Shown in pieces: positions 18,301-48,065 of a stretch of DNA of 64,000 bases. The notes beneath the pieces were generated by a model. The model was not told the DNA's origin and did not search any database. It saw only the letters and a list, made by a program, of their open reading frames with translations. The stretch covers positions 62,001 through 126,000 of the forward strand of contig NZ_CP015090.1 of the NCBI RefSeq assembly GCF_001975705.1. Direction: 5' to 3'. The number at the start of each line of letters is the position of its first letter. Within the stretch, counting starts at the first letter, position 1. This DNA is from Salipiger abyssi (GTDB lineage: Bacteria > Pseudomonadota > Alphaproteobacteria > Rhodobacterales > Rhodobacteraceae). The position numbers and the translations under genes were made by a program.

Positions 18301-18405
18301 ACGCGGGGGCGCGGCCCCCGGTTCTCTCAACCCCTGCAACGAGAGGGGCAGGGCGCCTCTGGCGGGCGCCCCACGGCCCCCGTTTGCCGACGTCACGGAG
18401 ACCAG

Positions 18406-24222: not shown

Positions 24223-25134
24223 ATGAGCAAGGTTGGACTGATCGGTCTCGGCAATATGGGATTGCCGATGACCAAGACCCTGATCGCACACGGACATGAG
24301 GTGCTGGGTTACCGGCGCGGCGCGGGCGAGGATTTCCTCGCGCTTGGCGGCAAGATGGCGGACTCGCCGCGCGACGTGGCGGAGCAGACGGATATCATTC
24401 TGTGCTGCATCCCTTCTGACGACGCGCTGGCCGAGGTGATCTCCGGCCCCGATGGGATTGCCGGCGGCGACTGCACCGGGAAGATCGTGGTGGAGCTCTC
24501 CACCCTTTCCGAAGAGGCCAAGGCGCGCGAGGCGGCGCTGATCGAGGCGAAGGGCGGGGTGCTGCTAGACGGCGCGATCAGCGGGCTGCCCCCGATGGTC
24601 GAGGCGCGCAGCGCGATATTCCTGCTCAGCGGTGACGAGGCGGCGTTCGAGACGGCGCGCCCGGTGCTGGAGTCGCTGACCGAGAGCCTGTTTTACATGG
24701 GCGGTTTCGGCGCCGCGATGAAGGCCAAGCTCTGCGCCAACCTGCTGGTCGGCATCAACCTCGCCGGCATCGCCGAGACGCTGGCCTTTGGCGCCAAGAT
24801 GGGGCTCGACCAGACACGGCTGATCGAGGCGCTGCGCGGCGGCGCGGGCACGTCGCTGCAATTCCAGGCCCGCGCGGGCCGGATGGCCAGTGGCGACTGG
24901 AACACCGTGCTGGGCTCGACCGCGATGCTGGCCAAGGACCTGCACCTGATCGAGACGGCGGGCGCCGATGCGGATTGCCCGATGCCGGTGCTGTCGAGCG
25001 CCGTGCCGCTCTACGACCGTGCCATCACCGCAGGCTATGGCGACACCGATGTCGCCTCGCTTTACGCCGCCGTCGCCTCGGCGGCGGGGCTGCCCGTTCC
25101 CGGAGATGACAAAAAAGGAAAAAACGATGAGTGA
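24223..25134 (+). CDS. NAD(P)-dependent beta-hydroxyacid dehydrogenase (3-hydroxyisobutyrate dehydrogenase family)
   Basis: A 303-residue protein with the N-terminal NAD(P) motif GLIGLGNMG (residues 5-13), the substrate-binding DGAISGLP (116-123) and the catalytic lysine region GFGAAMKAKLCANL (161-174; Lys167 or Lys169). The family oxidises beta-hydroxyacids; some members act in aromatic degradation. The chosen ATG has AGGAGGAG upstream; a longer frame upstream lacks support. It leads the operon and overlaps the FAH gene by 8 bp. Substrate unknown. Confidence 0.85.
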   Translation: MSKVGLIGLGNMGLPMTKTLIAHGHEVLGYRRGAGEDFLALGGKMADSPRDVAEQTDIILCCIPSDDALAEVISGPDGIAGGDCTGKIVVELSTLSEEAKAREAALIEAKGGVLLDGAISGLPPMVEARSAIFLLSGDEAAFETARPVLESLTESLFYMGGFGAAMKAKLCANLLVGINLAGIAETLAFGAKMGLDQTRLIEALRGGAGTSLQFQARAGRMASGDWNTVLGSTAMLAKDLHLIETAGADADCPMPVLSSAVPLYDRAITAGYGDTDVASLYAAVASAAGLPVPGDDKKGKNDE

Positions 25135-26005
25135 CTACAAGCTGGGAACGGCGCGGATCGAGGGCGCCGCGACGCCGGTTGTGCTGGTGAACGGCAAGGC
25201 GCATACGCTGGCCTCGGTGCTGGGCGAGGGGGCGCCGGCGACGCTGGAGGCGGTCTTTGCCGACTGGCCGCGCCATGAGGCCGAGATTGCCGCCGCCTGC
25301 GAGAGTATAAGCGGTGACGGGCGCGACCCGGAGACGCTGGCTTTTGAGACGCCCATCGCCAACCCGCGCAAGCTGGTCTGCATCGGCACCAATTACCACG
25401 ACCATCTCGAAGAGATGAAGGTCACCCACCTGCCGGAGTTTCCCTACGGCTTCATGCGCCCGCAGACCTGCCTCGCCGCGCATCGCGAAGAGATTCCGCT
25501 GCCCGAAGGTGCGAAGATGTACGACTGGGAGGCTGAGCTGGGCATCGTCATGGGCCGCCGCTACGGCCCCTCGGACAAGGGCGATCCGCTGGAGGCGGTG
25601 GCGGGCTATACCGTGCTGAACGACCTTTCGGCGCGCGACTGGATCCACAACCGGCCCTTTGTCGGCATCGACTGGGTGATGCAGAAATCCTGGGACAAGT
25701 TCCAGCCCACGGGCCCCTGGATCACGCCCGCGCGCTATGTGGCCGACCCCGGCGATCTCGATATCGAACTGACCGTCAACGGCGTGGTGAAGCAGAAATC
25801 CAATACCGGGCGGATGATTTTCAGCGTCGCCGATATCCTGCGGCATCTGGCCGGGATGATGACGCTGGAGCCCGGCGACATCATCGCCACCGGCACCCCG
25901 GCGGGGGTGGGGTTTGGCCGCGATCCGCAGGAATTCCTCAAGCCCGGCGATGTCACGCGCGTGACCGTCGAGGGGCTGGGCACGCTGGAAAACACATTCG
26001 TCTGA
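25127..26005 (+). CDS. Fumarylacetoacetate hydrolase family protein
   Basis: A 292-residue FAH-fold enzyme. The core begins with NPRKLVCIGTNYHDHLEEM and contains the divalent-metal ligands in DWEAELGIVMG (about residues 124-134), then GYTVLNDLSARDW and PGDIIATGTPAGVGFG. FAH proteins in such operons hydrolyse acylpyruvates such as fumarylpyruvate or act as 2-oxo-4-ene-dioate hydratase/decarboxylases. The start lies inside the end of the previous gene with AAAGGAA upstream. Next to an extradiol-type dioxygenase it probably processes the ring-cleavage product. Exact reaction unknown. Confidence 0.85.
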   Translation: MSDYKLGTARIEGAATPVVLVNGKAHTLASVLGEGAPATLEAVFADWPRHEAEIAAACESISGDGRDPETLAFETPIANPRKLVCIGTNYHDHLEEMKVTHLPEFPYGFMRPQTCLAAHREEIPLPEGAKMYDWEAELGIVMGRRYGPSDKGDPLEAVAGYTVLNDLSARDWIHNRPFVGIDWVMQKSWDKFQPTGPWITPARYVADPGDLDIELTVNGVVKQKSNTGRMIFSVADILRHLAGMMTLEPGDIIATGTPAGVGFGRDPQEFLKPGDVTRVTVEGLGTLENTFV

Positions 26006-26017
26006 GGAGGACAGATC

Positions 26018-26905
26018 ATGATCACCGTCAACCGTATCGTCTATGCGGTCTTTGAAACCCCCGATCTGGAAGCGCAGATCGAGCACTACACCAAGATCAT
26101 GGGCCTGACGCTGGTCGCCCGCGATGGTGACAGCGCCTATCTGTCGGCCAGTGCAGATCACCACACGGTGGTGCTGCGCAAGGGGACGGAGGCGCGCTGC
26201 GACACGCTGGGCTTTCAACTGCCGCCGGGCACCGATCTTGGTGACTATGCCAGGCAGATCGAGAGCCACGGGCTGACCACCAAGCGCCAGTCCGATCCGC
26301 AGCCCTCGATTTCCGAGGCGCTGGTGTTCAGCGACGACAAGGGCACCAATATCGAGGCCTTCGTCTCGGCCGAGCCCGCCAATATCGGGTTTCAGCCGCA
26401 GGGCATCGTGCCGAACAAGCTGGGCCATGTGGCCTATAACTGCACCGATGTGCAATCGACGGTGAAATTCTACTGCGAGGTTCTGGGCTTCAAGGTCAGC
26501 GACTGGATGGGCGATTTCTTTGCCTTCCTGCGCTGCGGCCCGGATCACCACACCATCAATCTGGTGCAGGGGCAGAAGACCAAGATGCACCACATCGCTT
26601 TTGAGCTGCGCGACTGGACCCATATCCGCGACGCCTGCGACTGGCTGGCGCAGGACCGCATTCCGCTGGTCTGGGGGCCGGTGCGGCATGGGATCGGGCA
26701 CAATATCTCGACCTATCACCGCAATGCCGACGGGCAGATCATCGAGCTGTTCTGCGAGCTGGACCGGGTGAACGAGGCGCTGGATTGCTACGATCCGCGC
26801 CCCTACCACCAGGAGTTTCCGCAAAAGAGCGGCAAGGTCTGGGAGGATATCCAGCTCGGCGCCAATATGTGGGGCACGCCCCCGCCGGAGGGCTTTCTGG
26901 ACTGA
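26018..26905 (+). CDS. Extradiol-type ring-cleavage dioxygenase (VOC superfamily)
   Basis: A 295-residue protein with two vicinal-oxygen-chelate modules, the layout of type I extradiol dioxygenases. The metal triad is visible in the C-terminal module as His137 (GHVAYNC), His192 (MHHIAFEL) and Glu243 (IIELFCE), and HGIGHNISTYHRN supplies further conserved active-site histidine and tyrosine positions. It would cleave a catechol-like substrate next to the diol with Fe(II) and O2. It is followed by cupin and SnoaL genes. The substrate is not identifiable; a trihydroxylated aromatic is attractive given the transhydroxylase-like enzyme 5 kb away. Confidence 0.85.
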   Translation: MITVNRIVYAVFETPDLEAQIEHYTKIMGLTLVARDGDSAYLSASADHHTVVLRKGTEARCDTLGFQLPPGTDLGDYARQIESHGLTTKRQSDPQPSISEALVFSDDKGTNIEAFVSAEPANIGFQPQGIVPNKLGHVAYNCTDVQSTVKFYCEVLGFKVSDWMGDFFAFLRCGPDHHTINLVQGQKTKMHHIAFELRDWTHIRDACDWLAQDRIPLVWGPVRHGIGHNISTYHRNADGQIIELFCELDRVNEALDCYDPRPYHQEFPQKSGKVWEDIQLGANMWGTPPPEGFLD

Positions 26906-26941: not shown

Positions 26942-27403
26942 ATGTCGGCACCGAAAGAGTATATCGCGGCGGATGCGGGGGAGGTCATTTCCTTTATGGG
27001 GATGGATCTCGTCTGGAAGATCGTCAACGAGCCGGAGGGCGAGTTGCTGACCTTTATCCAGGTGGCGCCGCCGGGCGGCGGCGTGCCGCTGCACATCCAC
27101 CACAATGAAGACGAGTATATCTATGTGCTGGAAGGCTCGCTGCGCTTTCAGCTCGGCGAGGATGTGTTCGACGTGGGCGAGGGCGATCACGTCTATATGC
27201 CGCGCGGCAAGGTCCACGGCTTTCGCATCACCGGCGACAAGACGGCGCGGATTCTCTTCACCCTCGCGATGAAACCCGAGAGCCGCTACGTCGAGATGTT
27301 CGAGGGTCTCGTGGGGCTTGCGCCCGAGGAGTTCGACAAGGTCGTGGAGGTCTGCGGGCGCAACCGGGTGGAGTTTCTGACGCCGCCGCAGTTGCCGGAG
27401 TGA
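26942..27403 (+). CDS. Small single-domain cupin protein
   Basis: A 153-residue cupin_2 protein. Motif 1 is HIHHNEDEYIYVLEG (residues about 52-66), giving His, His, Glu ligands, and motif 2 is MPRGKVHGFRITG with the fourth histidine. Single cupins in catabolic operons include quercetinase-like dioxygenases, isomerases and non-catalytic binding proteins. It is too short for gentisate 1,2-dioxygenase, which has two cupin domains and about 350 residues. It is 36 bp after the dioxygenase, in the same operon. Function unknown. Confidence 0.75.
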   Translation: MSAPKEYIAADAGEVISFMGMDLVWKIVNEPEGELLTFIQVAPPGGGVPLHIHHNEDEYIYVLEGSLRFQLGEDVFDVGEGDHVYMPRGKVHGFRITGDKTARILFTLAMKPESRYVEMFEGLVGLAPEEFDKVVEVCGRNRVEFLTPPQLPE

Positions 27404-27867: not shown

Positions 27868-28572
27868 TCACTCCTCCGGCGCCGTGCCCTCGTGCAGATC
27901 GCTGATCACCGCCTGCGAGGTCGAGCGGTAATGCGCTTCGAGCGCGGCGCAGGCCTCCTCGGCCTCGCGCGCCAGGCAGGCGCCCAGGATGCGCTCGTGT
28001 TCCTGCGAGACATCGCGGGTCAGCGCCGCCTCGGCGCTGTGTGCTGTGCGGAAGGCGCGGTAGCGCTCGGACTGGTCGAACAGAAGCCCCGCGAGATATT
28101 TCAGCCAGCGCGAGCTGCTCGCCGACAGAAGCTGCATGTGGAAATCCTTGTGCGCCTCGATCCAGTCGAAAGAGCCGGTCTCGCCCGGCTGCGGGATCGG
28201 GGTGCGCGAGAGCACGTGATAGGCCGAGAGGATCCGCCCCTCCCAGGCGACGTCGCCGGTGGCGATGGCATCGCGCAGCGCCTGGGTTTCGATCAGGATG
28301 CGCGTGTTCAGCACGTCCTGCACCTCGTCCTCGTCCAGTGGCGCGACGCGAAAGCCGCGCTGGCTTTCGGCGACGATCAGCCGTTCGGAGGAGAGCCGGG
28401 TCAGTGCTTCGCGCAGCGGGCTGATACCCACGGAATACTGCCCGCGCATCCAGTCGGATTTCAGCACCTTTCCCGGCGGCAGGGTGCCGAGGATGATGTC
28501 CCAGCGGATCCGGTCATAGACGCTTTCCGCGACGGTTGCCTTGCTGCCGGTCTCGCCGGATTTCTTTTGCAT
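27868..28572 (-). CDS. GntR-family regulator, FCD subgroup
   Basis: A 234-residue FadR/FCD-type regulator. The N-terminal winged helix has VAESVYDRIRWDIILGTLPPG and VGISPLREALTRLSSERLI; the C-terminal FCD domain has the metal/effector-binding residues in AHKDFHMQLL and EHERILGA and a final EAHYR. These regulators generally repress catabolic operons until an organic acid binds. It sits at the end of the minus-strand VOC/SDR block and convergent to the ring-cleavage operon, so it could control either. Confidence 0.9.
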   Translation of the reverse strand: MQKKSGETGSKATVAESVYDRIRWDIILGTLPPGKVLKSDWMRGQYSVGISPLREALTRLSSERLIVAESQRGFRVAPLDEDEVQDVLNTRILIETQALRDAIATGDVAWEGRILSAYHVLSRTPIPQPGETGSFDWIEAHKDFHMQLLSASSSRWLKYLAGLLFDQSERYRAFRTAHSAEAALTRDVSQEHERILGACLAREAEEACAALEAHYRSTSQAVISDLHEGTAPEE

Positions 28573-28672: not shown

Positions 28673-29161
28673 TCAGAAGCTCTGATCGGCGATCGTGGCG
28701 AACATCTCCTTCACGGCGCTGTCGAGATAGAGGATTTCGACAAGCGTGCCCTTATCGTCGGGGTGTTCGTAATAGTTGAAGCGGGTGTCGCCGAAACTGC
28801 CCTTCTGCACCGCCTGGAAGCCGCGCGCCTCCATCTCCGCCGCCGCAGGGTCGAACTCGGTGACCTCGAACCCGAGGTGATGCACCCCGCCTGTGGGCAC
28901 GCGTTCGAGATATTCGGCATAGGTCGAGCGCCCGGAGACCGGCATCATCAGCTCGATCTGCATATCGCCCATATAGCCGAAGGCCATCTCGTAGGAGACC
29001 TCCTCCATATTGCCGCGAAACCAGGTGACCTTCGGATCGGCGGGCAGGGTCATGAAACGGCCCGTGCCCATGGTGGTCTGCATATAGGCGATGGCGGCCT
29101 TCATGTCGGGCACGACAATGCCCATCTGGAACAGCCGCCCGGGCAGGTTTTCATGTGTCAT
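28673..29161 (-). CDS. VOC-superfamily protein (glyoxalase-like)
   Basis: A 162-residue single VOC-domain protein of the glyoxalase_4 type: LFQMGIVVPDMKAAIAYM at the start, MQIELMMPVSG in the middle, then GVHHLGFEV and GTLVEILYLDS. The candidate metal ligands are the histidine in GVHHLGF and the glutamates in IELM and VEIL. Single-domain members include isomerases, epimerases and ring-cleavage accessory enzymes. It is the last gene of a minus-strand unit with two SDRs. Substrate unknown. Confidence 0.75.
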   Translation of the reverse strand: MTHENLPGRLFQMGIVVPDMKAAIAYMQTTMGTGRFMTLPADPKVTWFRGNMEEVSYEMAFGYMGDMQIELMMPVSGRSTYAEYLERVPTGGVHHLGFEVTEFDPAAAEMEARGFQAVQKGSFGDTRFNYYEHPDDKGTLVEILYLDSAVKEMFATIADQSF

Positions 29162-29185: not shown

Positions 29186-29938
29186 TCAGACGCTGGAATA
29201 GCCGCCGTCTATGACCAGCTCCGAGCCGATCATGAAGCGGGACTCGTCGGAGGCGAGGTAGAGCACCGCGTCGGCGATCTCTTCCGGCTCTGCCGCGCGG
29301 CGCAGCGGTGCGCCGCCGAGCAGCTGGTCGAGCCCTTCCGGCGTGGCGATGAGATCCGCCGTCATCGGCGTCGCGATCACGCCCGGATGCAGCGAGTTCA
29401 CGCGGATGCCGTCCTGCGCCACCTCGGCGGCGACCGCCTTGGTAAAGAGCCGCACCGCGCCCTTCGAGGCGCAGTAGATGGAAAAGCCGGGCCGGCCCAC
29501 CATGGCGAAATTCGACGACACGTTGACGATCGCGCCGCCGCCCGCGGCCTTCATATGCGGGATCACCGCGCGCACGCCCATGAAGGTGCCGCGGGCGTTG
29601 ATATTCATCACGAAATCCCACTGGTCGAGCGTGCAGTCCTCGGCATTGGCGACGGTGTAGACGCCGGCATTGTTCACCAGAATGTCGATCTTGCCGAAGG
29701 CGTCGAGCGTTTCGGCCACGACCGCCTCCCAGTCCTCTTCCTTCGAGACGTCATGCTTGCGCACCTTGGCCGTGCCGCCGGCTTCGGTGATGAGGCGCAG
29801 GGTTTCGGCCAGCCCCTCCTCGTTGACATCGGTGGCAAAGACCTGCGCGCCCTCGCGGGCCAGCGCGCGGGCATGGGCCTGACCCATGCCGCTGCCGGCG
29901 CCGGTGACGATGGCGGATTTTCCCTGAACGCGTCCCAT
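29186..29938 (-). CDS. Classical short-chain dehydrogenase/reductase
   Basis: A 250-residue SDR with TGAGSGMG near the N-terminus, NNAGVYTV, catalytic Ser in NVSSNF, and Tyr-x3-Lys in YCASKGAVRLF. The C-terminus SELVIDGGYSSV is typical of FabG-like dehydrogenases. The ATG at 29938 has AAGGAG upstream; a longer in-frame extension is not supported. It is preceded by another SDR 59 bp away in the same direction. In this locus it may oxidise a cyclic diol or alcohol intermediate; the substrate is unknown. Confidence 0.85.
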   Translation of the reverse strand: MGRVQGKSAIVTGAGSGMGQAHARALAREGAQVFATDVNEEGLAETLRLITEAGGTAKVRKHDVSKEEDWEAVVAETLDAFGKIDILVNNAGVYTVANAEDCTLDQWDFVMNINARGTFMGVRAVIPHMKAAGGGAIVNVSSNFAMVGRPGFSIYCASKGAVRLFTKAVAAEVAQDGIRVNSLHPGVIATPMTADLIATPEGLDQLLGGAPLRRAAEPEEIADAVLYLASDESRFMIGSELVIDGGYSSV

Positions 29939-29997: not shown

Positions 29998-30741
29998 TCA
30001 GACGAAGCGCCAGCCGCCATCCACGAGCAGCGTCTGCCCGGTGACGAAAGCGGCGTCGTCGGAGGCGAGGAACGCCATCGGCCCGACGAGATCGTCGGGT
30101 GTCTCGGTGCGCTTGATCGCCTGTTGCTGTGCCAGCATGTCGAACCATTGTGATTGCGGGCCGCCCTCGGTGGTCGGCGTGCGCACGAGGCCGGGGGCGA
30201 TGGTGTTCACGGTGATGCCGAACTCGCCGCTTTCCGAGGCGAGGGCGCGTGCAAAGGCGATCAGCCCGGCCTTGGAGGCGCTGTAATGGCTGTTATAGGC
30301 AAGGCCCGAGTGGAAGGTGGTGGAAGAGACGGCGATGATCCGTCCCCAGCCTTTCTCCTTCATGCCCGGCAGCACCGCCTTGGTCAGGTGGAAGATCGAG
30401 TCGAGATTGATCGACAGCACCCGGCGCCAGTCGTCAAAAGACATCTCTTCGAAAAGCTGCGCCGGATAGATACCGGCGTTGTGGACGAGGATGTCGCAGC
30501 CGCCCATTTCGGAGGCAACCTGCTGGCCCATCGCGGCGATGCTCTCGCCCGAGGACATGTCGCAATGGATGGCCAGCGCCTTGACGCCCAGCTTTTCCGC
30601 CTCTGCCACGACCTCTTCTGCCGGGGCGATATCGGCGATCACCACATTGGCGCCCTCTTCGGCAAGGCGCATGACAAACGCCTTCCCGATACCATTGGCA
30701 CCGCCGGTGACAATGGCCGTCTTACCCTTAAGACCCTTCAT
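29998..30741 (-). CDS. Classical short-chain dehydrogenase/reductase
   Basis: A 247-residue SDR: TGGANGIG near residue 12, HNAGIYPA, the Ser of AVSSTTFHSG and Tyr-x3-Lys in YSASKAGLIAF, with a C-terminal QTLLVDGGWRFV. It is the first gene of the SDR-SDR-VOC unit. GGGAGG precedes the ATG. The upstream A+T-rich region holds an operator-like inverted repeat (30811-30840). Two adjacent, clearly different SDRs suggest sequential or stereospecific oxidation steps, but the substrates cannot be read. Confidence 0.85.
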   Translation of the reverse strand: MKGLKGKTAIVTGGANGIGKAFVMRLAEEGANVVIADIAPAEEVVAEAEKLGVKALAIHCDMSSGESIAAMGQQVASEMGGCDILVHNAGIYPAQLFEEMSFDDWRRVLSINLDSIFHLTKAVLPGMKEKGWGRIIAVSSTTFHSGLAYNSHYSASKAGLIAFARALASESGEFGITVNTIAPGLVRTPTTEGGPQSQWFDMLAQQQAIKRTETPDDLVGPMAFLASDDAAFVTGQTLLVDGGWRFV

Positions 30742-31073: not shown

Positions 31074-31910
31074 TCAGAGGCGGATTTCGACCGGGTGCGG
31101 GTGCGACAGCTCCAGCGGAACCGTTTTTTCCGCGCCGTCCGGTGTCGAGAGGCGCAGCTCGATCCGGTCGGCCTGTGGCGGGATCTCGGCAAAGGCGAAC
31201 TCGCCGAACCCGTTGGTCACGGTGCGTGCCCGTTCCTTGCCGTCCTCGTGCAAGGCAACGGTGATGCCCGCCGCGCAGTCGGGCCGCCCGTCTGTCTCCT
31301 GCAAGACCGTGCCGGCCACAAGCGCATGGGTCAGCCGCCGCATGTTCTTGTAATAGACCCTCGGTTTCGCCGCCTCCATGCCGGGAAAACCCTCAAGCCC
31401 GTCGCGCGCCACCCGCTGCGCCAGTGCGTCATTGTCGAGCTTTGCGCATTGCAGCGCCGAGGTCGGGCAGGCCTGCACGGCGCGCGGCATCTCCCATCCG
31501 GCATCGAGCAGATGTGCGTCGAAGCTCCACAGATGCGCCGCGCCCGTGCCCGCGTCGCGCCGGATCATGCCGAAGGGGCAGAGCGCCTCCAGCTCCGGTG
31601 CGTGTGCCTTTTCCGGGTCGAGCAGCACGATCCCGTCCGCGCGCTTGCGCAGTGCGCCGGTGCTGTCGGCCTTGAGGCAGGGCGCGTCGTCGCAATGGCT
31701 GCACATGCGCGGCACATAGGTCAGCTCGACCTGCGTGCCGCTGCCGCGCTGGTGCTTGTCGATGCGGATCGTGTCGACCCCGGCGCCGCTCTGGGCGGCG
31801 GAATAGCCGGGGAAGTCGTTGCCGATATGCTCGTCCTTGGTGGCCAGCACGCAGTTGTGGCAGTTCACGCAAAGGTCGAGATCCACGGTCAGGGTCCATT
31901 TCGCGCTCAT
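31074..31910 (-). CDS. Iron-sulfur subunit resembling pyrogallol transhydroxylase small subunit
   Basis: A 278-residue protein. The ferredoxin-like part has Cys14-Cys17-Cys20, Cys70-Cys73-Cys78, Cys111 and Cys148; the C-terminal 80 residues form a carboxypeptidase-regulatory-like beta domain (GTVLQETDGRP, TNGFGEFAFAEIP), as in the Pelobacter transhydroxylase beta subunit. PRVYYKNMRR also matches that protein. Four cluster ligands present in the Pelobacter subunit are replaced (Thr24, Trp128, Asp131, Ala144), leaving ligands for two [4Fe-4S] clusters rather than three. No Tat or Sec signal is seen, so it is cytoplasmic. The start overlaps the large-subunit stop (ATGA). Confidence 0.85.
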   Translation of the reverse strand: MSAKWTLTVDLDLCVNCHNCVLATKDEHIGNDFPGYSAAQSGAGVDTIRIDKHQRGSGTQVELTYVPRMCSHCDDAPCLKADSTGALRKRADGIVLLDPEKAHAPELEALCPFGMIRRDAGTGAAHLWSFDAHLLDAGWEMPRAVQACPTSALQCAKLDNDALAQRVARDGLEGFPGMEAAKPRVYYKNMRRLTHALVAGTVLQETDGRPDCAAGITVALHEDGKERARTVTNGFGEFAFAEIPPQADRIELRLSTPDGAEKTVPLELSHPHPVEIRL

Positions 31911-34888
31911 GCGGCGGCCTCCTCGGTGGCGTTCACATCCGCCCAGCGGGTGATCTGGATGAGACAGCTGTTGGGGGTTATCCCGTCGGCCATGCGGCTC
32001 ATGGTCCGGGCGGGTGTCAGCAGGTTGAGGCATCCGCCGCGATCCACCGGCCCGTCGGGCGTGTCGACGGGATCGTATTCCGCGCAGGATTCCCAGGAGC
32101 CGATCACCCCGCGTGCCATCAGCGGCGTCACCCGCGCGGCGCAGAGCACGGCGCCGCGGTCGTTATGCACCTTAACCAGCTCGCCATCGGCGACACCGCG
32201 CGCGGCGGCGTCCTCGGGGTTCATCCGCACGATCCAGTAGCGGTGGCCGTCGACCAGAACGCGGTGATCGGCGATCTCGTTGACCGCGCTGTTCTTGCCG
32301 TCCGACTGGGTGTGGAAGCTGTAGCGCGGATGCGCGGTGATGAGTTGCAGGGGCCAGGGCGAGTCTGCGGCCCTGGTCGTCGTGTCGGGCGGGCGCATGT
32401 AGCGGTTGACCGCCGGGCGCGCGGGGTCGAGATCGCCCAGCCGTTTCAGCGAGCCGGGCACAAACTCGAACTTGCCCGATTGCGTGCCGAGCCCCTGACC
32501 GAAGCCCTGGCTGTAGACCGCCGGAAGCGGGTTCGGTTCGGGCAGGTTCTTGGTGCGGCCCTCGGCGAACCAGCGCATATCCACCTCTTGTGCCGCATGA
32601 TCGGCGGGGGTGGGCACGATGTAATAGCCCTTCTTGAGAAACGCCTTCCAGCTGATCTTGTCCGCCAGATCGGTCGATTCAAAGATCCGCTTGCACCAGG
32701 TGAGATCGGAACAGCCGCCCTCGGTGAACATCGCGCCCATGCCGAGCCGGGTCAGGATCCCGGCAAAGATCTGGTAGTCGGATTTCGACTCCCCCAGCGG
32801 TTCGATGGCCTTGTGCTGCATGACGATCACGCGGTGATTGAGCTGGCTCTGGTTGTGATGGATATAGCCCGCGCAATTGGCGCTTTCCGAGATGTCGTCG
32901 CGCTCGAAGGAGGTGCAGGCGGGCAGGATGATATCGGCGAATTTCGCCTCGTTCTCCATCCAGATCGCCTGCGTGACGACCGTTTCGAGGCTCTCGTGGC
33001 GATAGGCCTCGACCATACGGTTCGAGCCCGGCACCGTGCCCAGCGACGAGGCGCCGTAGCGGTAATACATATGCACGGGCGAAAAGCCGGGGCGCGGGTA
33101 TTCCATCTTGACGAACTGGCCCTCGGCCGAGAACCCGTCCCAGTAATAGCCCTCGGCCTTGCCGGTCACGATGGCATCGGCCAGCCGCTGGCGCGGGATC
33201 GCCTGCTTCACCGGGTTGATGGTGACGATATGCGGCATGCGCACATAATTGTGCATGACGCTGGCACTGTTGACCACGTCGCCCGAGATGCCGCCATCGG
33301 CATAGCCGGGGAAGTAGAAATTGTAATCCTGCGGCGCGCCCATCTGGAGATTGCCGAAATTGATCCCCGGCTTGCCCCAGCCCTGCATCGCCATCAGCAT
33401 GACCATGGCACGCGCCCATTGCGCGCCGCCGCCGCCCCGGCAGGGCCCGCCAAAGCCCGCGCCAAGGCCGCCGGCGGCGAGATAGGTCTTTTTCCCCGCC
33501 CATTGTTTTGCCAGCGCGCGGGCCACATGGGCAGGCACGCCGGTTTCCTCCTCCTGCCATTCGGGGGTTTTCGGCACGCCGTCCTCGCGGCCCAGCACAT
33601 AGGCCTCCCACTCGTCGAAGCCGGTGGTGCGGCTGGCGACATAGTCCTTGTCGTAGCTGCCGGTCACCATCCATTCATGCATGATCGCAATGGCCAGCGC
33701 CGCGTCGGTGCCCGGGCGGACCGGCACCCAGGTGCCGCCCAAGAGCTGCGCGGTGGCAGTCTTGTGCGGGTCGATATGGATGAACTCGATCCCCAGCTCC
33801 TTGGCCCAGAGCCGCCGCTCGGTGCCTTCGAACCCGGCATAGATGCCATTTGTCGTCTCCGGGTCGCTGCCCCAGAAGACGATCTGCTCGGCATGATCGA
33901 GGCAATCCTGCACCGTGCCGTAAAAGCCCGGCAGGCCGAGCCGGATGCTGTTGCCGAAATGATGGGTCGCGCCCCAGTACCAGCCTTCCCAGCTGATCGG
34001 GCTGAACTCGACCCGCGTTGCGCCGATGAGGTTGGAAAAGCGCAGAAGCGCGCTCAGCCAGTAGTTGAGATTGCCCCACTGGTGATGCGCGGGCGGTGCG
34101 GCGGCGATGGCGCCGGGGCCGTACTCGGTCTTCATCCTGCGGATTTCCGAGGCGACGAGGTCGAAGGCCTCGTCCCAGCTGATCCGCTCATAGCCGGATT
34201 TGCCGCGGTTCTGCGGGTTGCGCTCGCCGTTCGGATCCCAGTCGACCCGCTTCATCGGGTAGAGGATGCGCTTGTCGGAATAGACCTGGCTTTTCATCCC
34301 CAGCGCATGCGGGCTGAGCGTCGCCTGCCGGCGCGGGGTGAAGCTGCGCCCGCGCGCCTCCAGCGTCCAGCTTTCGGCGTCGTCCTCGGCGAGGTCGATG
34401 GGCGTGGTCCGCAGGATCTTGCCATCCTTCACATAGACGAAGAGCGGCCCGCCATTGGTGAGGTTGGTATAGCGCATGGTGCCGTCGGGCATCCTGGTGC
34501 CGCGTTTCATGCTGGCGGTGTTGATCGTATCGACGAGCTGGCCGAACCAGAGCAGCACCGCATCGTCGCCGGTCTGGGTGATCTTGAAGTTTTTCAGCGC
34601 GTCGATGAGGAAGGCGTAATCCGTCTTGGGCTGGAGCATTTTCAGCGCGGTCGCGCTGTCCATGAAGACGATCTCGGCATCGGGCGCCGGGTGACGCCCC
34701 CAGCCGGCGGTGATCTTGCCGTTTCTGAAGGTGATATGCCGGCTGAGGCTGCCGTCGCGCAGCCGCAGTTGCACGGTATGATTGCCGGTTTGCAGATGCG
34801 CCTTCACCGGGTCGAGCAGCCGGGCGGCCAGCCGCACGGCCCCCGGAAGCGCGGACAGAATCGTCCTGAGCTTGAGCGTTTGGGTCAT
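31907..34888 (-). CDS. Molybdopterin oxidoreductase resembling pyrogallol-phloroglucinol transhydroxylase large subunit, with N-terminal SCP2-like extension
   Basis: A 993-residue DMSO-reductase-family enzyme. From about residue 140 it follows the Pelobacter transhydroxylase alpha subunit closely: GGPLFVYVKDGKILRTTPID, DPNGERNPQ, AHHQWGN (His268), SWEGWYWG with the presumed Mo ligand Ser299, SDPETTNGIYAGFE, FYFPGYADGGISGD (Tyr529), and FADIILPACTSFERDDISE. The residue before the serine, Asp in Pelobacter, is Ile298. About 130 extra N-terminal residues resemble an SCP2-like fold. There is no twin-arginine signal. The start at 34888 has GGGAGGAAGGA upstream. The likely reaction is hydroxyl transfer or (de)hydroxylation on a polyphenol, without certainty. 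Coupled to the iron-sulfur subunit. Confidence 0.85.
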   Translation of the reverse strand: MTQTLKLRTILSALPGAVRLAARLLDPVKAHLQTGNHTVQLRLRDGSLSRHITFRNGKITAGWGRHPAPDAEIVFMDSATALKMLQPKTDYAFLIDALKNFKITQTGDDAVLLWFGQLVDTINTASMKRGTRMPDGTMRYTNLTNGGPLFVYVKDGKILRTTPIDLAEDDAESWTLEARGRSFTPRRQATLSPHALGMKSQVYSDKRILYPMKRVDWDPNGERNPQNRGKSGYERISWDEAFDLVASEIRRMKTEYGPGAIAAAPPAHHQWGNLNYWLSALLRFSNLIGATRVEFSPISWEGWYWGATHHFGNSIRLGLPGFYGTVQDCLDHAEQIVFWGSDPETTNGIYAGFEGTERRLWAKELGIEFIHIDPHKTATAQLLGGTWVPVRPGTDAALAIAIMHEWMVTGSYDKDYVASRTTGFDEWEAYVLGREDGVPKTPEWQEEETGVPAHVARALAKQWAGKKTYLAAGGLGAGFGGPCRGGGGAQWARAMVMLMAMQGWGKPGINFGNLQMGAPQDYNFYFPGYADGGISGDVVNSASVMHNYVRMPHIVTINPVKQAIPRQRLADAIVTGKAEGYYWDGFSAEGQFVKMEYPRPGFSPVHMYYRYGASSLGTVPGSNRMVEAYRHESLETVVTQAIWMENEAKFADIILPACTSFERDDISESANCAGYIHHNQSQLNHRVIVMQHKAIEPLGESKSDYQIFAGILTRLGMGAMFTEGGCSDLTWCKRIFESTDLADKISWKAFLKKGYYIVPTPADHAAQEVDMRWFAEGRTKNLPEPNPLPAVYSQGFGQGLGTQSGKFEFVPGSLKRLGDLDPARPAVNRYMRPPDTTTRAADSPWPLQLITAHPRYSFHTQSDGKNSAVNEIADHRVLVDGHRYWIVRMNPEDAAARGVADGELVKVHNDRGAVLCAARVTPLMARGVIGSWESCAEYDPVDTPDGPVDRGGCLNLLTPARTMSRMADGITPNSCLIQITRWADVNATEEAAA

Positions 34889-35143: not shown

Positions 35144-35857
35144 ATGACAGGCCGGAGCGAGCGGAGAGCAGGCGCGGCGATGGGCGAGGAACAACCGGAA
35201 AAGCACGATCACCGCCCGCGCGTCGCGCAGATGCGGCGGGAGCGGCGGCGTCAGCAGATCCTTTCGGTGGTCGGTGCGCATTACCCCGGCCCAAAGGAGA
35301 TCCCGGCGACGCTGGACGACATCCTCAAGGTGGCGGGCATCTCGAAGGGTACGTTCTACAAATATTTCCCGTCGCTCGAAGACGCGGTCTCGGCCCATGG
35401 CGCGGATCTGGCACGGCAGATGATCCTCGATATGGAAGAGGTCTACAGCCCGCTGTCCACGCCGGTCGAACGGGTGGCGATGGGGTTTCAGCTGTTTCTC
35501 TATCGCGGTGTGAGCGACCGCAGCTTTGCCGCCTTCACCAGCCATATTCAGGAACTGCCGCAGGACAACCTGCTGCTGCAATACATCCTCGCAGATCTCC
35601 GCGAGGGGCGGGCCCGTGGCGCCTTTCGCATCACGGATGTGGACAACGCCGCCTGGATCTGTGTCGGCATCACCTTTGCCGCGCTCAAGCGTATTGCAGG
35701 GGGCGCAGGCGGCGAGGGGGTCATCCGCGAGACGGTGACGATGCTGCTGCGTGCGCTGGGAGCGGAGGAGGCTGCGATTGCGGCGGCGCTGGACAAGACC
35801 GGCGCAACGCTCACCGCACGCGGGCCGGAGGTGTTTTCCTGGTGGCGCACGGGCTGA
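35144..35857 (+). CDS. TetR-family transcriptional regulator
   Basis: A 237-residue TetR regulator. After a basic N-terminus (QMRRERRRQQIL) the helix-turn-helix is in TLDDILKVAGISKGTFYKYF. The C-terminal ligand domain is not assignable. It is divergent from the transhydroxylase-like operon with 255 bp between, containing a TTGGAAAAT element (35047-35055), and is the natural candidate for controlling that operon. The ATG at 35144 is used; an in-frame ATG twelve codons later (35180) with GAGCAGG upstream is also possible. Confidence 0.87.
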   Translation: MTGRSERRAGAAMGEEQPEKHDHRPRVAQMRRERRRQQILSVVGAHYPGPKEIPATLDDILKVAGISKGTFYKYFPSLEDAVSAHGADLARQMILDMEEVYSPLSTPVERVAMGFQLFLYRGVSDRSFAAFTSHIQELPQDNLLLQYILADLREGRARGAFRITDVDNAAWICVGITFAALKRIAGGAGGEGVIRETVTMLLRALGAEEAAIAAALDKTGATLTARGPEVFSWWRTG

Positions 35858-42397: not shown

Positions 42398-43354
42398 TCA
42401 CCCCGCGACGAACCGGTTGCTCAGCGTGCCGAGGCCGGTCACCGTGACATCGACCACATCGCCGGGCCGCATCAGCACCTTGGGGTCGTGCCCGTAGCCG
42501 ACGCCGCCCGGCGTGCCGGTGCTGATGATGTCGCCCGGCGCCAGCGCATACCATTGCGAGAAATACGAAATCACCCGCGCCAGCGGAAAGATGAAATCGT
42601 CGGTATTGGCCTGCTGCATCACCGCGCCGTTGACCCGGGTAACCAGCTCCAGCGCGTTGGGATCGGCGATCTCCTCCGCCGTCACCAGCGCCGGACCCAT
42701 CGGCGAGAAGCCGGGATATTGCTTGCCCATATGCACCAGATCCCAGGCATGGCGCGCCTCGGGTGTGGTGCTGGCCTTGCCGATCAGCGGGACGTGGTCG
42801 CGGGCGGAGACGTCGTTGGTCACCATGTAGCCGGCGACGCAGGCCATGGCCTCCTCCTCGCTGACATTATGGCAGGCGCGCCCGATCACCACGCAGAGCT
42901 CGCCTTCGTAATCCACCATGTCGGGGGCCTGCGGTGGCAGCGGAATGTCGGCGAAGGGGCCGGTGACGGCGGAGGGGGCCTTGAGGAAGCCATGCGGCTC
43001 CGACGGCGGCTTGCCCTTCATCTCGGCCACATGGCCGCGATAGGCCTGACCGACCGAGACGATCAGCCGGGGGGAGGGCAGGGGGGCGAGCAGCCGGGTT
43101 CCCTCGGGCAGCAGAGCGCCTGTGGCGCGCAGGGCCTCGCGAGCGTCTTCGCCCGTCTCTTCGACACGCGCGACCATGCGGCGGACGAGATTGAGCCCCT
43201 CGGATCCGGCGCCAAGGATGTCGCGCAGATGCGGCGGCAGCCAGGTCTCGGCGGTGCCGGGGGTCGCGGCGCGGGCGAGATGCAGGATCTCGCCGCTTTC
43301 CAGAACCGCGCCGGGCTGGCCGCCGGGGATGCAGTCGATGGTGACGAGTTTCAT
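42398..43354 (-). CDS. Fumarylacetoacetate hydrolase family protein
   Basis: A 318-residue FAH-fold enzyme: LIVSVGQAYRGHVAEMKGKP opens the core, DYEGELCVVIGR (about residues 148-159) carries the metal-binding acids, then GYMVTNDVSARD and PGDIISTGTPGGVGYG. It starts within the stop of the SnoaL-like gene (ATGA). It is the last gene of the molybdenum hydroxylase operon, where it presumably hydrolyses or decarboxylates an open-chain 2-oxo acid derived from the hydroxylated ring. It is distinct from the copy at 25127. Confidence 0.85.
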   Translation of the reverse strand: MKLVTIDCIPGGQPGAVLESGEILHLARAATPGTAETWLPPHLRDILGAGSEGLNLVRRMVARVEETGEDAREALRATGALLPEGTRLLAPLPSPRLIVSVGQAYRGHVAEMKGKPPSEPHGFLKAPSAVTGPFADIPLPPQAPDMVDYEGELCVVIGRACHNVSEEEAMACVAGYMVTNDVSARDHVPLIGKASTTPEARHAWDLVHMGKQYPGFSPMGPALVTAEEIADPNALELVTRVNGAVMQQANTDDFIFPLARVISYFSQWYALAPGDIISTGTPGGVGYGHDPKVLMRPGDVVDVTVTGLGTLSNRFVAG

Positions 43355-43785
43355 GCGGCTTTCCTCCGGAAGCTGAGGTCGATGCGCCAGGTCTTGATGC
43401 GCCAGCCCTCATCGGTGCGGGTGAAGCCGCCGTTGAAGATCACCAGCGAATCCGGCGCGCCGAGCGGCGCCTCGCCATGCTCGTCGAGCGCGCCGACATG
43501 GCCGAAGACCAGCGCATAGGCTTGGCCCGTCGCGGTGGTCTCGTCTTCCACGTCGATGAGCATATTGCTGACGATGTGGCGGGTGATGCGCTCGGGGTTG
43601 CGGCGGTTCAGCACAAAGCGCAGCCCGTCCAGTCCCTCAAAGACCTCATCGGCGCGCTGAAAGGTGCAGTCGGGCACGAAGAGCCCCAGCGCGCGGTCGT
43701 AATCGAACGTGTCGGTGCAGAGCGAAAACGTGGTCATGAGGCGGCTGCACTCCGCCTCGATGGCAAGGCGCTGTAGGGTGTCCAT
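43351..43785 (-). CDS. SnoaL-like / ring-hydroxylating dioxygenase beta-subunit-like protein
   Basis: A 144-residue NTF2-fold protein: MDTLQRLAIEAECSRLMTTF at the start, YDRALGLFVPDCTFQRADE, and ITRHIVSNMLIDVEDETTA, which is the usual SnoaL_4 pattern. The C-terminus has GFTRTDEGWRIKTWRIDLSF. It is shorter than dioxygenase beta subunits and no alpha subunit is nearby, so a small hydrolase, dehydratase or isomerase is more likely. A set of 25-bp repeats lies directly upstream. Coupled to the FAH gene. Confidence 0.75.
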   Translation of the reverse strand: MDTLQRLAIEAECSRLMTTFSLCTDTFDYDRALGLFVPDCTFQRADEVFEGLDGLRFVLNRRNPERITRHIVSNMLIDVEDETTATGQAYALVFGHVGALDEHGEAPLGAPDSLVIFNGGFTRTDEGWRIKTWRIDLSFRRKAA

Positions 43786-43959: not shown

Positions 43960-44439
43960 TCAGGCCGCGCGCATCCGCGCGGCGGCTTTCTGTACGGCCT
44001 CGATGATCTGCGGATAGGTGCCGCAGCGGCAGAGATTGCCGGTGAGATACACCCGGATTTCCTCTTCGCTCGGCTCCGGGATCTCGGCGATGAGCTGGCG
44101 CGTCATCAGCACGAAGCCGGGGGTGCAAAAGCCGCATTGAAAGGCGCCCGCCTCGATGAAGGCCTCCTGCACCGGATCGAGTGTCTCCTCGTCCTTCTCG
44201 ATGGTCTCGATGGTGGCGCCATCGGCCAGCGCCGCGAGGAAGAGGCAGCCGGAGACCGGCTTGCCGTTCAGCACCACCGTGCAGCAGCCGCAGAGCCCCT
44301 GGCCGCAGCTCTGCCGCGCGCCATAGAGGTCGAAGCCCTGTTGCAGCAGGTCGACCAAGGTCCAGTGGCCCTGGATCTCGGCGCTGACCGCTTTGCCGTT
44401 CAGGGTGAAGTCAATCGTCTGGGTCATGACGTCTTTCAT
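43960..44439 (-). CDS. [2Fe-2S] subunit of a molybdenum hydroxylase (CoxS/XdhC-like)
   Basis: A 159-residue protein with both [2Fe-2S] clusters: Cys45, 50, 53 and 65 (plant-ferredoxin type, SCGQGLCGCC) and Cys102, 105, 137 and 139 (CGFC..CRC helical domain). It passes electrons from the molybdenum site in the large subunit to FAD in the medium subunit. GGAGGAGG precedes the ATG at 44439; the ATG four codons later is less likely. It follows the large-subunit gene directly. Confidence 0.92.
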   Translation of the reverse strand: MKDVMTQTIDFTLNGKAVSAEIQGHWTLVDLLQQGFDLYGARQSCGQGLCGCCTVVLNGKPVSGCLFLAALADGATIETIEKDEETLDPVQEAFIEAGAFQCGFCTPGFVLMTRQLIAEIPEPSEEEIRVYLTGNLCRCGTYPQIIEAVQKAAARMRAA

Positions 44440-44440
44440 C

Positions 44441-46729
44441 TCATTCCTCCTCCAGCGGCTCGCCCGCCGCCGCGCGCATGGCGCGATAGACCGTTTCGCC
44501 GGTGATCGGCATCTCCGAGACGCGCACGCCCACCGCGTTGAACACGGCGTTGGCGATGGCCGAGGAGACGCAGAACGAGCCGGTCTCGCCGACGCCCTTG
44601 GCGCCGAAGGGCCCGTCGGCCTCCGCGCCGTCGAGAATGCTGGTCTCGATCTGCGGAATGTCGAGCATGCTCGGGATCTTGTAATCGGCGAAGGATGCGT
44701 TGGTGACCTGGCCGAAATCGAAATGCACCTTCTCCTGCATGGTCTGGCCAAGCTGCATGATCGACGCGCCCGAGATCTGGTGATCGACGATCTTGGGATT
44801 GATCTGGGTGCCGGTGTCGGCGACGTTGATCATCTTCAGCACGGTGACCCGTCCGGTTTCGGTGTCGATCTCGACCTCGGCCCCGGTGGCGCCCAGCATC
44901 CAGTAGGGCGTGATATGCGGCGACTGCCCGGTCATCGGATCGGGCGGTATGTGACCGTCGGGGATGAAGCTCGCGGTGCCGACCACATGGCCGACCGGCA
45001 TGCCGTTCTTGCGGGCGAAGAGCTCCCAGATCGGCACGTTGGAGCCGGGCTGCGCACCGACCTCCGCCGCCAGCTCTTCGAGCTTGGCCTTGGCGTCTTC
45101 GGCTGCCAGCCGTGCCGCGTGCCCCATGTGATAGAGCGAGCGCGAGCCCAGCGTGCCGGTGTCATAGGGCGCCACGTCGGTATCGGGATGCACCACATGC
45201 ACCATCTCCACCGGCATGTTCAGCACCTCGGCCACGATCTGCGCATGCGCCGTGTCCGAGCCCTGGCCCATATCGACGGTGGCACAGATCAGCGTGGCGC
45301 TGCCATCGGCGCCGAGCCGCACGATCGCCTCGGAGGTCGAGGGCGCGATCGACGCCTTGATGCCGATGGCAAAGCCGCGCCCGCGCTTGACGGTGCCCTC
45401 GCCCCGCTCGAAGGGCTTGCCCCATTGGAGCCGCTCGGCCACCCGGTCGAGCACCTTTTCCACCGACGAGGTGTTGAGCGCGGTGCCGGTCGCGTGCTCC
45501 TTGCCCTCGCGCAGGATATTGCGGCGGCGGAATTCGAGCGGGTCGATGCCCAGCTCATGCGCCATCATGTCGGTGTGGTTCTCGTAGGCCCAGATGAGCT
45601 GCGGATGACCGAAACCGCGCATGGCGCCCGCGACGGGGCGGTTGGTGTACATCGAGAAGGAGTCGATGGCGACGTTCTCGATATCGTAGGGGCCGGCCGC
45701 CGTCATGCCGGCGTGAAAGGCCACCGCCGGGCCGATATCGGCATAGGCGCCGCCGTTCCAGAACACCTCGCATTTGCGCGCGGTGATGCGGCCATCCTTG
45801 TCGAGCCCGCTTTTGATCTTCAGCGTCGCGCCGTGCTTGGTGATGGTGTAGAACTGCTCTTCCATGCTGAGCGAGACCTTCACCGGGCGTTTCGCCAGCA
45901 GCGCCGCGGCGGCGACCAGCGCCTCCAGCCGGATCCAGAGCTTGGCGCCAAAGCCGCCGCCCAGATAGGGTACGCGCACCCGGATCCTGTGCTGCGGCCA
46001 GCCCAGCAGCCGCGAGATCTCGTAGCGCACGAAAGACGGGCTCTGGTTGGCGGTGTGCAGCGTCAGCCCGGCGCCGGTGGGCTCGGCCACGGTGACGGGG
46101 GGTTCCAGCGGCACATGCGCCGAGGGGTGGGTGCGGAACGTGTGTTCGAACACCCGGTCGGCCTCTTCAAAAGCGGTGTCGACATCGCCGCCATGGCGGA
46201 GCTGATAGGGAAAGCCGACATTGGTGTCGCGCACGCCCTTGAGGAACTGGATTTCCGGGATGCCGGGTTTCAGCTCGTCATGCACGAAGGTTTCGGCGCT
46301 CAGCGCCTCCATCTCGTCAAAGACCGGCTCAAGCTCGTCATAGTCCACGTCGATCAGCGCCACCGCCTCGGCGGCGACATTGGGGTCGGAGGCCAGCACG
46401 ATGGCGACGGGTTCGCCGACATAGCGCACCTTGTCGAGCGCCAGCACCGGCTGGTCGTGGAACATCACGCCGAAATGCGGATCGGGCATGATCTTGCGGA
46501 TATCCTCGCCGGTCAGCACCATGTCGACGCCGGGGCAGGCGGCGGCCTCGCTGGTGTCTATGCTGACGATGCGGGCATGCGCCACGGTGCTGCGGAAGAT
46601 CTTGCCGTAGAGCATGTTCGGCAGGCGCAGGTTGTGGATGTATTCGATACGTCCGGTCACCTTTTCCCTGGCCTCGCGCCGCGGGTGAGACTGCCCGACA
46701 GCACGGATCTGGGTAATCTGGTCGTTCAT
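44441..46729 (-). CDS. Molybdopterin-binding catalytic subunit of a molybdenum hydroxylase (xanthine dehydrogenase family)
   Basis: A 762-residue large subunit: N-terminal hammerhead domain (REKVTGRIEYIHNLRLPNML) and MPT-binding domains with YLGGGFGAKLW, AGAMRGFGHPQ and the C-terminal GAKGVGETGSFCVSSAIANAV, whose GVGE glutamate is the catalytic base. The active-site loop AMRGFG is of the xanthine-dehydrogenase/form II type, not the VAYRCSFR of true CO dehydrogenase. It inserts oxygen from water into an aromatic or aldehyde C-H bond. The ATG at 46729 was chosen; a longer upstream frame overlaps the FAD-subunit gene. Substrate unknown; the FAH partner suggests a ring compound. Confidence 0.88.
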   Translation of the reverse strand: MNDQITQIRAVGQSHPRREAREKVTGRIEYIHNLRLPNMLYGKIFRSTVAHARIVSIDTSEAAACPGVDMVLTGEDIRKIMPDPHFGVMFHDQPVLALDKVRYVGEPVAIVLASDPNVAAEAVALIDVDYDELEPVFDEMEALSAETFVHDELKPGIPEIQFLKGVRDTNVGFPYQLRHGGDVDTAFEEADRVFEHTFRTHPSAHVPLEPPVTVAEPTGAGLTLHTANQSPSFVRYEISRLLGWPQHRIRVRVPYLGGGFGAKLWIRLEALVAAAALLAKRPVKVSLSMEEQFYTITKHGATLKIKSGLDKDGRITARKCEVFWNGGAYADIGPAVAFHAGMTAAGPYDIENVAIDSFSMYTNRPVAGAMRGFGHPQLIWAYENHTDMMAHELGIDPLEFRRRNILREGKEHATGTALNTSSVEKVLDRVAERLQWGKPFERGEGTVKRGRGFAIGIKASIAPSTSEAIVRLGADGSATLICATVDMGQGSDTAHAQIVAEVLNMPVEMVHVVHPDTDVAPYDTGTLGSRSLYHMGHAARLAAEDAKAKLEELAAEVGAQPGSNVPIWELFARKNGMPVGHVVGTASFIPDGHIPPDPMTGQSPHITPYWMLGATGAEVEIDTETGRVTVLKMINVADTGTQINPKIVDHQISGASIMQLGQTMQEKVHFDFGQVTNASFADYKIPSMLDIPQIETSILDGAEADGPFGAKGVGETGSFCVSSAIANAVFNAVGVRVSEMPITGETVYRAMRAAAGEPLEEE

Positions 46730-46737
46730 GTCACACC

Positions 46738-47601: not shown

Positions 47602-48065
47602 GCCTTGCCCCCTTCCGCAGGCGCCAGATCGAAGGCCGCGCGCAGGCGCTTGGTGAATTCCTTCTCCATCTCGCGCGCCTTGGATTTCAGCACAGGCTGG
47701 CCGATGCTGCCGAGACGCCCGGTCAGATGCGAGTCGATGGTGTATTCGATGATCGTCTCGCCATCCTGCTCGTGCAGCTCGGTGAGCGCGGTCGAGGTCA
47801 GGCGCCCGACGATGCCTGCGGGCGTGCCGGTGACCTGGGCCTCGATCAGGTAGGGTTCCTCGATGCGGGTGATCTGCACCTCGACATCGAAGGAGAACCG
47901 GATATAGGCCACCCGCGTCTTGAGCACGGCGGTATAGTTCCGGTCGTCGATCTCTTTCATGTCGCTGACGCCGTCGACGCAGCTTGCAAAGAATTCTGCG
48001 TCGCGGACGGCGGCGAAAACGCGGTCGCGCGGGGCGGCGACGCTGATTTTTCCAGTGAGTTTCAT
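47598..48065 (-). CDS. CoxG family protein (SRPBCC fold)
   Basis: A 155-residue CoxG-like protein: MKLTGKISVAAPRDRVFAAV at the N-terminus, DAEFFASCVDGVSDMKEID and IVGRLTSTALTELHEQDGETIIEYTIDS, all characteristic of the START-like CoxG domain. CoxG proteins accompany molybdenum hydroxylases and are thought to help membrane attachment or assembly. The ATG overlaps the stop of a 21-codon leader ORF (ATGA), which may couple translation. It heads the CoxG-M-L-S-SnoaL-FAH operon. Confidence 0.88.
   Translation of the reverse strand: MKLTGKISVAAPRDRVFAAVRDAEFFASCVDGVSDMKEIDDRNYTAVLKTRVAYIRFSFDVEVQITRIEEPYLIEAQVTGTPAGIVGRLTSTALTELHEQDGETIIEYTIDSHLTGRLGSIGQPVLKSKAREMEKEFTKRLRAAFDLAPAEGGKA

Follow-up and report, generated by a model that had tools for sequence, protein, structure and literature searches.

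Pyrogallol transhydroxylase and the resorcinol-type hydroxylases are, to our knowledge, the only characterized enzymes of their molybdenum enzyme family, and both come from anaerobic metabolism. The transhydroxylase is that of Pelobacter acidigallici (PDB 4v4c; PgtL/PgtS, AthL), and resorcinol hydroxylase is RhL/RhS of Azoarcus anaerobius. PMC10100899 places RhL and PgtL together as recent, Ser-ligated members of the MopB enzymes, PMC7028382 sets the catechol dehydroxylases apart from transhydroxylase, and PMC10470551 has transhydroxylase acting in anaerobic tannin breakdown. Here we describe two coupled genes of this RhL/PgtL kind from a plasmid of the marine bacterium Salipiger abyssi (NZ_CP015090.1, positions 62,001 to 126,000; this stretch of 64,000 nucleotides is the window, and coordinates count from its first letter). 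They encode a molybdenum enzyme whose large subunit is fused to a sterol carrier protein 2 (SCP2) fold, and which belongs to a separate, apparently uncharacterized lineage.

Gene Pair and Domain Fusion

The pair and its added domain are as follows.

31907 to 34888, minus strand: large subunit, a molybdenum-bis(molybdopterin guanine dinucleotide) (Mo-bisMGD) protein of the pyrogallol transhydroxylase/resorcinol hydroxylase kind, 993 residues
34508 to 34888, minus strand: N-terminal SCP2-fold domain of the large subunit, residues ∼1–127 (about 1–130)
31074 to 31910, minus strand: small subunit, ferredoxin-like with a C-terminal beta domain, 278 residues (153 bits to 4v4c_B; cysteine mapping)

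The two genes share 4 bases. The large subunit is 51% identical to PgtL across 841 residues, and its predicted fold matches the Pelobacter transhydroxylase along 829 residues; the small subunit is 37% identical to its Pelobacter counterpart. The PF21423 domain, the MopB domains, and a coupled ferredoxin-like subunit with a beta domain place the pair in the wide PgtL/RhL-type family. At the C-terminus of the small subunit, the Pelobacter alignment reaches residue 244, and residues 198–274 give a subthreshold CarboxypepD_reg match (E 1.1e-5); we take this region to be the beta-barrel domain of the Pelobacter structure. The genome holds no close second copy of the large subunit, the next best match being 30% identical.

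The large subunit differs from that of Pelobacter in its N-terminal domain, which has an SCP2 fold although the Pfam SCP2 profile scores it at 15.6 bits, below the cutoff of 21.3. An N-terminal extension of more than 100 residues is present in 118 of the best 120 matches to the Salipiger protein, versus none of the best 120 Pelobacter-type matches. Known SCP2 domains that stand alone or are fused to enzymes (human MFE-2, UbiJ, and the C-terminal part of the alkylsulfatase SdsA1) fold like residues 1–127; the domain described here differs from them in sitting at the N-terminus of a molybdoenzyme, and identity to them is only 7–20%.

For comparison, we used the best 80 of 588 loci, a set biased to Burkholderiales and rhizobia in which related strains are counted apart and counts are therefore not independent. 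With Pelobacter numbering, 60 of these loci have Asp at position 174 and are termed the sister group; the Ile/Val174 loci number 21 with the window included and are termed the query clade. A small subunit gene lies within 5 kb of the large subunit gene in 75 of the 81 loci (56/60 in the sister group, 19/21 in the query clade), with short contigs counted as misses. In one locus (L022, Xenophilus azovorans, 12976 onward), the small subunit gene is apparently frameshifted past about residue 98, through either error or decay.

Active-Site Positions

The Ser175 ligand position for Mo is present in the Salipiger bisMGD fold. By alignment, Pelobacter His144 and Ser175 correspond to His268 and Ser299, with a spacing of 31 in both enzymes, and Tyr404 and Tyr560 correspond to Tyr529 and Tyr675. 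His144, Ser175, and Tyr404 are invariant in 80/80 loci, in the best 120 of 5019 matches to the Salipiger protein, and in the best 120 of 4982 Pelobacter-type matches.

Other pocket positions have changed: Arg153 is Trp277, Asp174 is Ile298, and Trp354 is Phe479. Arg153 is retained in 117 and Asp174 in 120 of the best 120 Pelobacter-type matches. At position 153, 119 of the best 120 matches to the Salipiger protein and 80/80 loci have Tyr or Trp. Position 174 is divided: of those 120 matches, 55 have Asp and 65 have Ile or Val, and of the 80 loci, 60 have Asp and 20 have Ile. Both Arg153 and Asp174 presumably contact substrate in the Pelobacter structure.

Iron–Sulfur Ligands of the Small Subunit

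The Pelobacter small subunit carries three 4Fe-4S clusters, and we grouped its 12 cluster cysteines into sets A (13, 16, 19, 149), B (23, 126, 129, 145), and C (68, 71, 76, 109) by the ferredoxin convention. The Salipiger small subunit has Cys at 8 of the 12 positions; the missing four are set B, where it has Thr24, Trp128, Asp131, and Ala144. Among gap-free rows, Pelobacter excluded, set A is complete in 79/79 and set C in 78/78, and set B has at most one Cys in 77/78 (3 of the 81 rows, that is, the 80 loci and the window, were left out of the set B count for gaps). The exception, L083 (a Myxococcota-type metagenome-assembled genome, 10001–13760), keeps all 12 Cys beside an SCP2-fused large subunit that has a near-basal position among the SCP2-fused rows, and it may represent a stage between the Pelobacter type and the enzymes with two clusters. 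By what we take to be the arrangement in related enzymes such as NarH, the set B cluster occupies the place between A and C, and its loss would break the electron path through the subunit. This is compatible with a reaction in which net electron flow is slight or absent, or with a different exit for electrons; it is proof of neither.

Phylogeny and Distribution

We built a tree from 98 large subunits, namely 96 rows hand-chosen from 322 and two outgroup rows, both of which have long branches. One branch (support 100) sets off the Pelobacter-type group and another (98) the Ile/Val174 group, which includes the Salipiger protein; the Asp174 SCP2-fused rows fall between them. Both groups recur in a 53-row tree under a mixture model (100 and 96). 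The approximately unbiased (AU) test on the 53 rows rejects a topology in which the query group and the Pelobacter group are united to the exclusion of the Asp174 rows (p-AU 3.6e-15); the groups were defined after the first tree had been inspected. The trees and the AU test thus put the Salipiger large subunit outside the Pelobacter clade.

A Thauera protein is placed within the SCP2-fused lineage in the 98-row tree, and a 993-residue protein of Georgfuchsia toluolica (P0252) is 74% identical to it across 99% of its length. We take Georgfuchsia toluolica to be an anaerobe, and these two members indicate that the lineage extends beyond aerobes. No protein named RhL was among the matches listed; RhL is perhaps the nearest characterized relative, and the dihydroxybenzoate hydroxylase of Thauera can be grouped with RhL/RhS. 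The DMSO, TMAO, and S-oxide reductases (7l5i, 1dmr, 1tmo) are 28–32% identical to the Salipiger protein and differ in their pocket, and we know of no PF21423-type partner subunit among them. Acetylene hydratase and the catechol dehydroxylases, which have another type of Mo ligand, are far more distant (56 bits), and identity with either is ruled out by these much lower scores.

Within the family of the host, 3 of 295 sampled genomes have a match at E ≤ 1e-150, namely its own and two in which the match is of the Asp174 type; in a sample of the phylum the figure is 1 of 398, the genome itself. These counts rule out a long-standing trait of the bacterial family, and the gene is sporadic.

A preliminary description of this DNA had likened the two genes to both Pelobacter transhydroxylase subunits and had pointed to the His/Ser spacing of 31 and to conserved His, Ser, and Tyr positions. 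The homology and the positions are borne out, the spacing exactly. The likeness itself needs qualifying by the changes at 153 and 174, the lost Fe–S ligands, and the added SCP2-fold domain, on all of which that description was silent. The large subunit phylogeny that it called for confirms the relationship to Pelobacter and shows a separate lineage, with a grouping with Pelobacter apart from the Asp174 cousins rejected. The oxygen-dependent neighborhood that it described is borne out for this locus; an aerobic setting does not hold as a trait of the lineage, given the Georgfuchsia member.

Gene Neighborhoods

Genes in the 80 loci and the window were called with a custom scorer rather than a published gene finder and were then clustered. 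As a control, we counted the same genes at 5–10 kb; 59 of the 81 loci have 9 kb on both sides, 17 are intermediate, and 5 lack even 5 kb on either side. Extradiol dioxygenases were counted as a strict set (at least 250 residues and all three ligands, 51 proteins) and as a looser set in which single-domain VOC proteins are admitted as well (72).

Coupling of the molybdenum enzyme to ring cleavage in the sister group is well supported by gene order. A strict two-domain extradiol dioxygenase with the His-His-Glu ligands lies within 5 kb in 38/60 loci, compared with 7/60 at 5–10 kb (50 and 9 for the looser set), and a fumarylacetoacetate (FAA) hydrolase in 45/60, compared with 2; both the strict dioxygenase and the hydrolase are within 5 kb in 34/60. 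The dioxygenase is in the same gene run as the molybdenum enzyme in 28/60 loci (34/60 looser), and dioxygenase and hydrolase share one unbroken same-strand run with the large subunit gene in 27/60 (32/60 looser). In the main dioxygenase cluster of the sister group, the ligands are present in 40/40 proteins, with an HpaD family match far under the equivalog cutoff. Acyl-CoA ligases of the AMP-dependent type occur within 5 kb in 32/60 loci (4 at 5–10 kb). Outer-membrane proteins (OmpW, FadL, MetA, or DUF1302/1329) occur in 27/60, but also in 16 at 5–10 kb. Both kinds of neighbor are hints of a hydrophobic substrate, and the outer-membrane protein is a weak one.

The Plasmid Island

Around the gene pair, the window contains the following genes.

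35180 to 35857, plus strand: TetR-type regulator, divergent from the large subunit gene (Pfam TetR_N)
29998 to 30741, minus strand: short-chain dehydrogenase/reductase (SDR) family oxidoreductase, downstream of the small subunit gene (Pfam adh_short_C2)
29186 to 29938, minus strand: SDR-family oxidoreductase (Pfam adh_short_C2)
28673 to 29161, minus strand: small VOC protein (glyoxalase_4, Pfam PF13669), methylmalonyl-CoA-epimerase-like, with TIGR03081 far under its cutoff
27868 to 28572, minus strand: GntR/FCD regulator (Pfam), in one cluster with GntR proteins within 10 kb of the molybdenum enzyme in L036, L040, L053, L084, and L087
27406 to 27786, plus strand: SnoaL-like protein (Pfam)
26942 to 27403, plus strand: cupin protein (Pfam)
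26018 to 26905, plus strand: type-I extradiol dioxygenase with H137, H192, and E243, the HpaD and catechol 2,3-dioxygenase families being under their equivalog cutoffs
25106 to 26005, plus strand: FAA hydrolase-family protein (Pfam PF01557)
24223 to 25134, plus strand: 3-hydroxyisobutyrate-dehydrogenase-like beta-hydroxyacid dehydrogenase (Pfam; NCBIfam under cutoff)
17158 to 18300, plus strand: flavin monooxygenase similar to the N-terminal half of salicylyl-CoA 5-hydroxylase (387 bits, under cutoff)

Past the small subunit gene, the minus strand thus carries two SDR genes, the small VOC gene, and the GntR gene, and these are faced by a plus-strand operon of the beta-hydroxyacid dehydrogenase, FAA hydrolase, dioxygenase, cupin, and SnoaL genes. 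The dioxygenase/hydrolase pair is convergent to the molybdenum enzyme genes and 5 kb away. The dioxygenase has the VOC double domain and the 2-His-1-carboxylate ligands (108.6 bits to PDB 3b59). The gene order is the same in another Salipiger abyssi locus (L008; large subunit 98% and dioxygenase 96.6% identical), which as a very near relative says little. In the rhodobacterial Gemmobacter aquaticus (L040), the two subunit genes, a GntR gene, a dioxygenase gene, and an FAA hydrolase gene stand side by side, the last three in the same clusters as those of the window at 35–41% identity.

A benzoate-CoA ligase-family protein (over cutoff) adjoins the flavin monooxygenase (both in 17158–20025, plus strand), and RepA and RepB, both over cutoff, are encoded at 10601–12819 (plus strand); the catabolic island may lie close to a repABC-type plasmid origin. 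Many of the genes on the island relate to aromatic acids and phenols. The preliminary description was right about an extradiol-type dioxygenase, about TetR and GntR regulators, and, judging from RepA and RepB, about the plasmid; it spoke of several flavin monooxygenases, one of which was examined and confirmed. A second molybdenum enzyme, a hydroxylase of the xanthine dehydrogenase family made up of 2Fe-2S, Mo, and FAD subunits, is encoded together with a CoxG protein at 43960–48065 (minus strand) and adjoined by an FAA hydrolase (42398–43354) and a SnoaL protein (43351–43785).

Proposed Function and Alternatives

We infer, with a probability of roughly 0.45, that the pair forms a heterodimeric, SCP2-fused Mo-bisMGD enzyme that carries out an O2-independent ring hydroxylation or hydroxyl shift on a hydrophobic phenol, followed by extradiol and FAA hydrolase cleavage. 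Mo would be held via Ser299 and ringed by His268, Tyr529, and Tyr675, where a ring hydroxyl could be added or moved without O2. The substrate would be a phenol that exceeds pyrogallol in hydrophobicity and has fewer hydroxyl groups, and the SCP2 domain may help to capture or present it. A product with a vicinal diol could then be cleaved by the extradiol dioxygenase and split by the FAA hydrolase, steps that on the plasmid would fall to the proteins of 26018–26905 and 25106–26005. Net hydroxylation is favored over a pyrogallol-to-phloroglucinol transfer because the transfer removes the vicinal diol. For an earlier suggestion that hydroxyl shuffling is combined here with oxidative ring cleavage, the coupling gains support from the sister group (38/60), whereas the shuffling is not supported and the pairing is seen within 5 kb in 0/21 query-clade loci.

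Several observations weigh against this proposal. In the query clade, an extradiol dioxygenase lies within 5 kb of the large subunit gene in 0/21 loci, an acyl-CoA ligase in 0/21, and an FAA hydrolase in only 4/21. Since the pairing is not conserved there, the plasmid pairing rests on one convergent operon 5 kb off. The query clade instead has SDR genes within 5 kb in 12/21 loci (4/60 in the sister group) and, in 10/21 (among L009–L021, behind the small subunit gene), a gene that we take to be 4,5-dihydroxyphthalate-decarboxylase-like, its Pfam matches being only NMT1 and Phosphonate-bd; these genes replace the dioxygenase and hydrolase, so the pathway may differ. Even in the sister group, 22/60 loci have no strict dioxygenase within 5 kb, some of them on short contigs, and the Asp174-type locus L090 (5086–12444), from the family of the window, has other partners. 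The replacement of Asp174, a presumed substrate contact, by Ile as read from the sequence also speaks against the proposal, and loss of the middle Fe–S cluster would hinder the electron export that net hydroxylation needs and so argues for transfer. Finally, we know of no substrate or activity for any member of the loci shown.

By eye, L090 has TPP-enzyme-like, crotonase-like, and beta-hydroxyacid dehydrogenase genes in place of the dioxygenase and FAA hydrolase, and L026 and L059 have gene sets partly like it. Such loci are perhaps a non-oxygenolytic branch.

The alternatives differ in reaction, substrate, and partners. An RhL/RhS orthologue, which would hydroxylate a small resorcinol to a hydroxyquinol with water-derived oxygen and pass electrons to respiration, is unlikely: RhL and PgtL are grouped among the Ser-ligated enzymes, as noted above, the Thauera member and its close Georgfuchsia relative belong to the SCP2-fused lineage, and the Thauera-branch locus L026 has dehydrogenase E1 genes nearby, presumably a trait of the anaerobic resorcinol cluster, but the query clade differs at position 174 and has an E1 gene within 10 kb in 0/21 loci. 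Rather unlikely, too, is an oxidoreductase or hydratase acting on a nonphenolic or polycyclic hydrophobic compound such as a terpenoid or steroid ring, with SDR, SnoaL, P450, and Rieske neighbors in the same pathway. The SCP2-fold domain, the SDR genes (12/21) and SnoaL genes (5/21 within 5 kb, versus 0/60 in the sister group), P450-like genes (identified visually, up to 10 kb away) in L023 and L027, Rieske-type genes in L016 and L042, and the loss of a polar pocket residue from Asp174 to Ile/Val are consistent with it; the retained Tyr and His positions around Mo of a phenol-using homologue and the wealth of aromatic-ring genes on the island are not.

A passenger role for the plasmid copy, or one unlinked to the dioxygenase with the two SDR genes as the only partners, is improbable. 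The 5 kb gap, the convergent operon, and the 0/21 count fit this view, but the GntR-dioxygenase-FAA hydrolase set common to the window and L040 argues against it, as does the arrangement kept in L008, for what so near a relative is worth. A true pyrogallol–phloroglucinol transhydroxylase, or an enzyme interconverting phloroglucinol and hydroxyquinol, in a polyphenol pathway is highly improbable. Its favor lies in the 51% identity to PgtL, the retained His144, Ser175, Tyr404, and Tyr560 positions, and a cluster loss compatible with a reaction that has no net flow of electrons; against these stand the near-invariant Arg153 and Asp174 replaced by Trp and Ile, the separate lineage, the SCP2-type extension absent from the Pelobacter-type matches, and a known product, phloroglucinol, with no vicinal diol for an extradiol enzyme. 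A strict pyrogallol transhydroxylase is ruled out by residues 153 and 174, the cluster loss, and the AU test.

Implications

In the open-license PubMed Central literature, we found no description of the SCP2 fusion, the two-cluster small subunit, or the operon, and no link between the enzyme and alkylresorcinol, orcinol, or sorgoleone as substrates; the accessible parts of PMC12366328 and PMC11887054 add nothing further on the SCP2-fused lineage. The lineage combines a new domain fusion with a trimmed electron-transfer subunit, and it bears on the reason for Fe–S clusters in an enzyme whose reaction involves no net electron transfer, in that the ligands of one cluster have here been lost in evolution. 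The gene runs of the sister group that include a dioxygenase give concrete, testable substrates and operons.

The SCP2-fused lineage occurs in many genera usually taken as aerobic, among the Burkholderiales, rhizobia, pseudomonads, and Salipiger. A general route in aerobic proteobacteria is conceivable if doubtful, in which the SCP2-fused enzyme would hydroxylate or isomerize hydrophobic resorcinol-like phenols (e.g., alkylresorcinols) with water-derived oxygen, an extradiol dioxygenase, an FAA hydrolase, and an acyl-CoA ligase would follow, and the Ile/Val174 clade would be a substrate-shifted branch. If this is true, anaerobic-style ring activation joined to oxidative cleavage would stand in for the flavin or diiron monooxygenases that usually act at this step.

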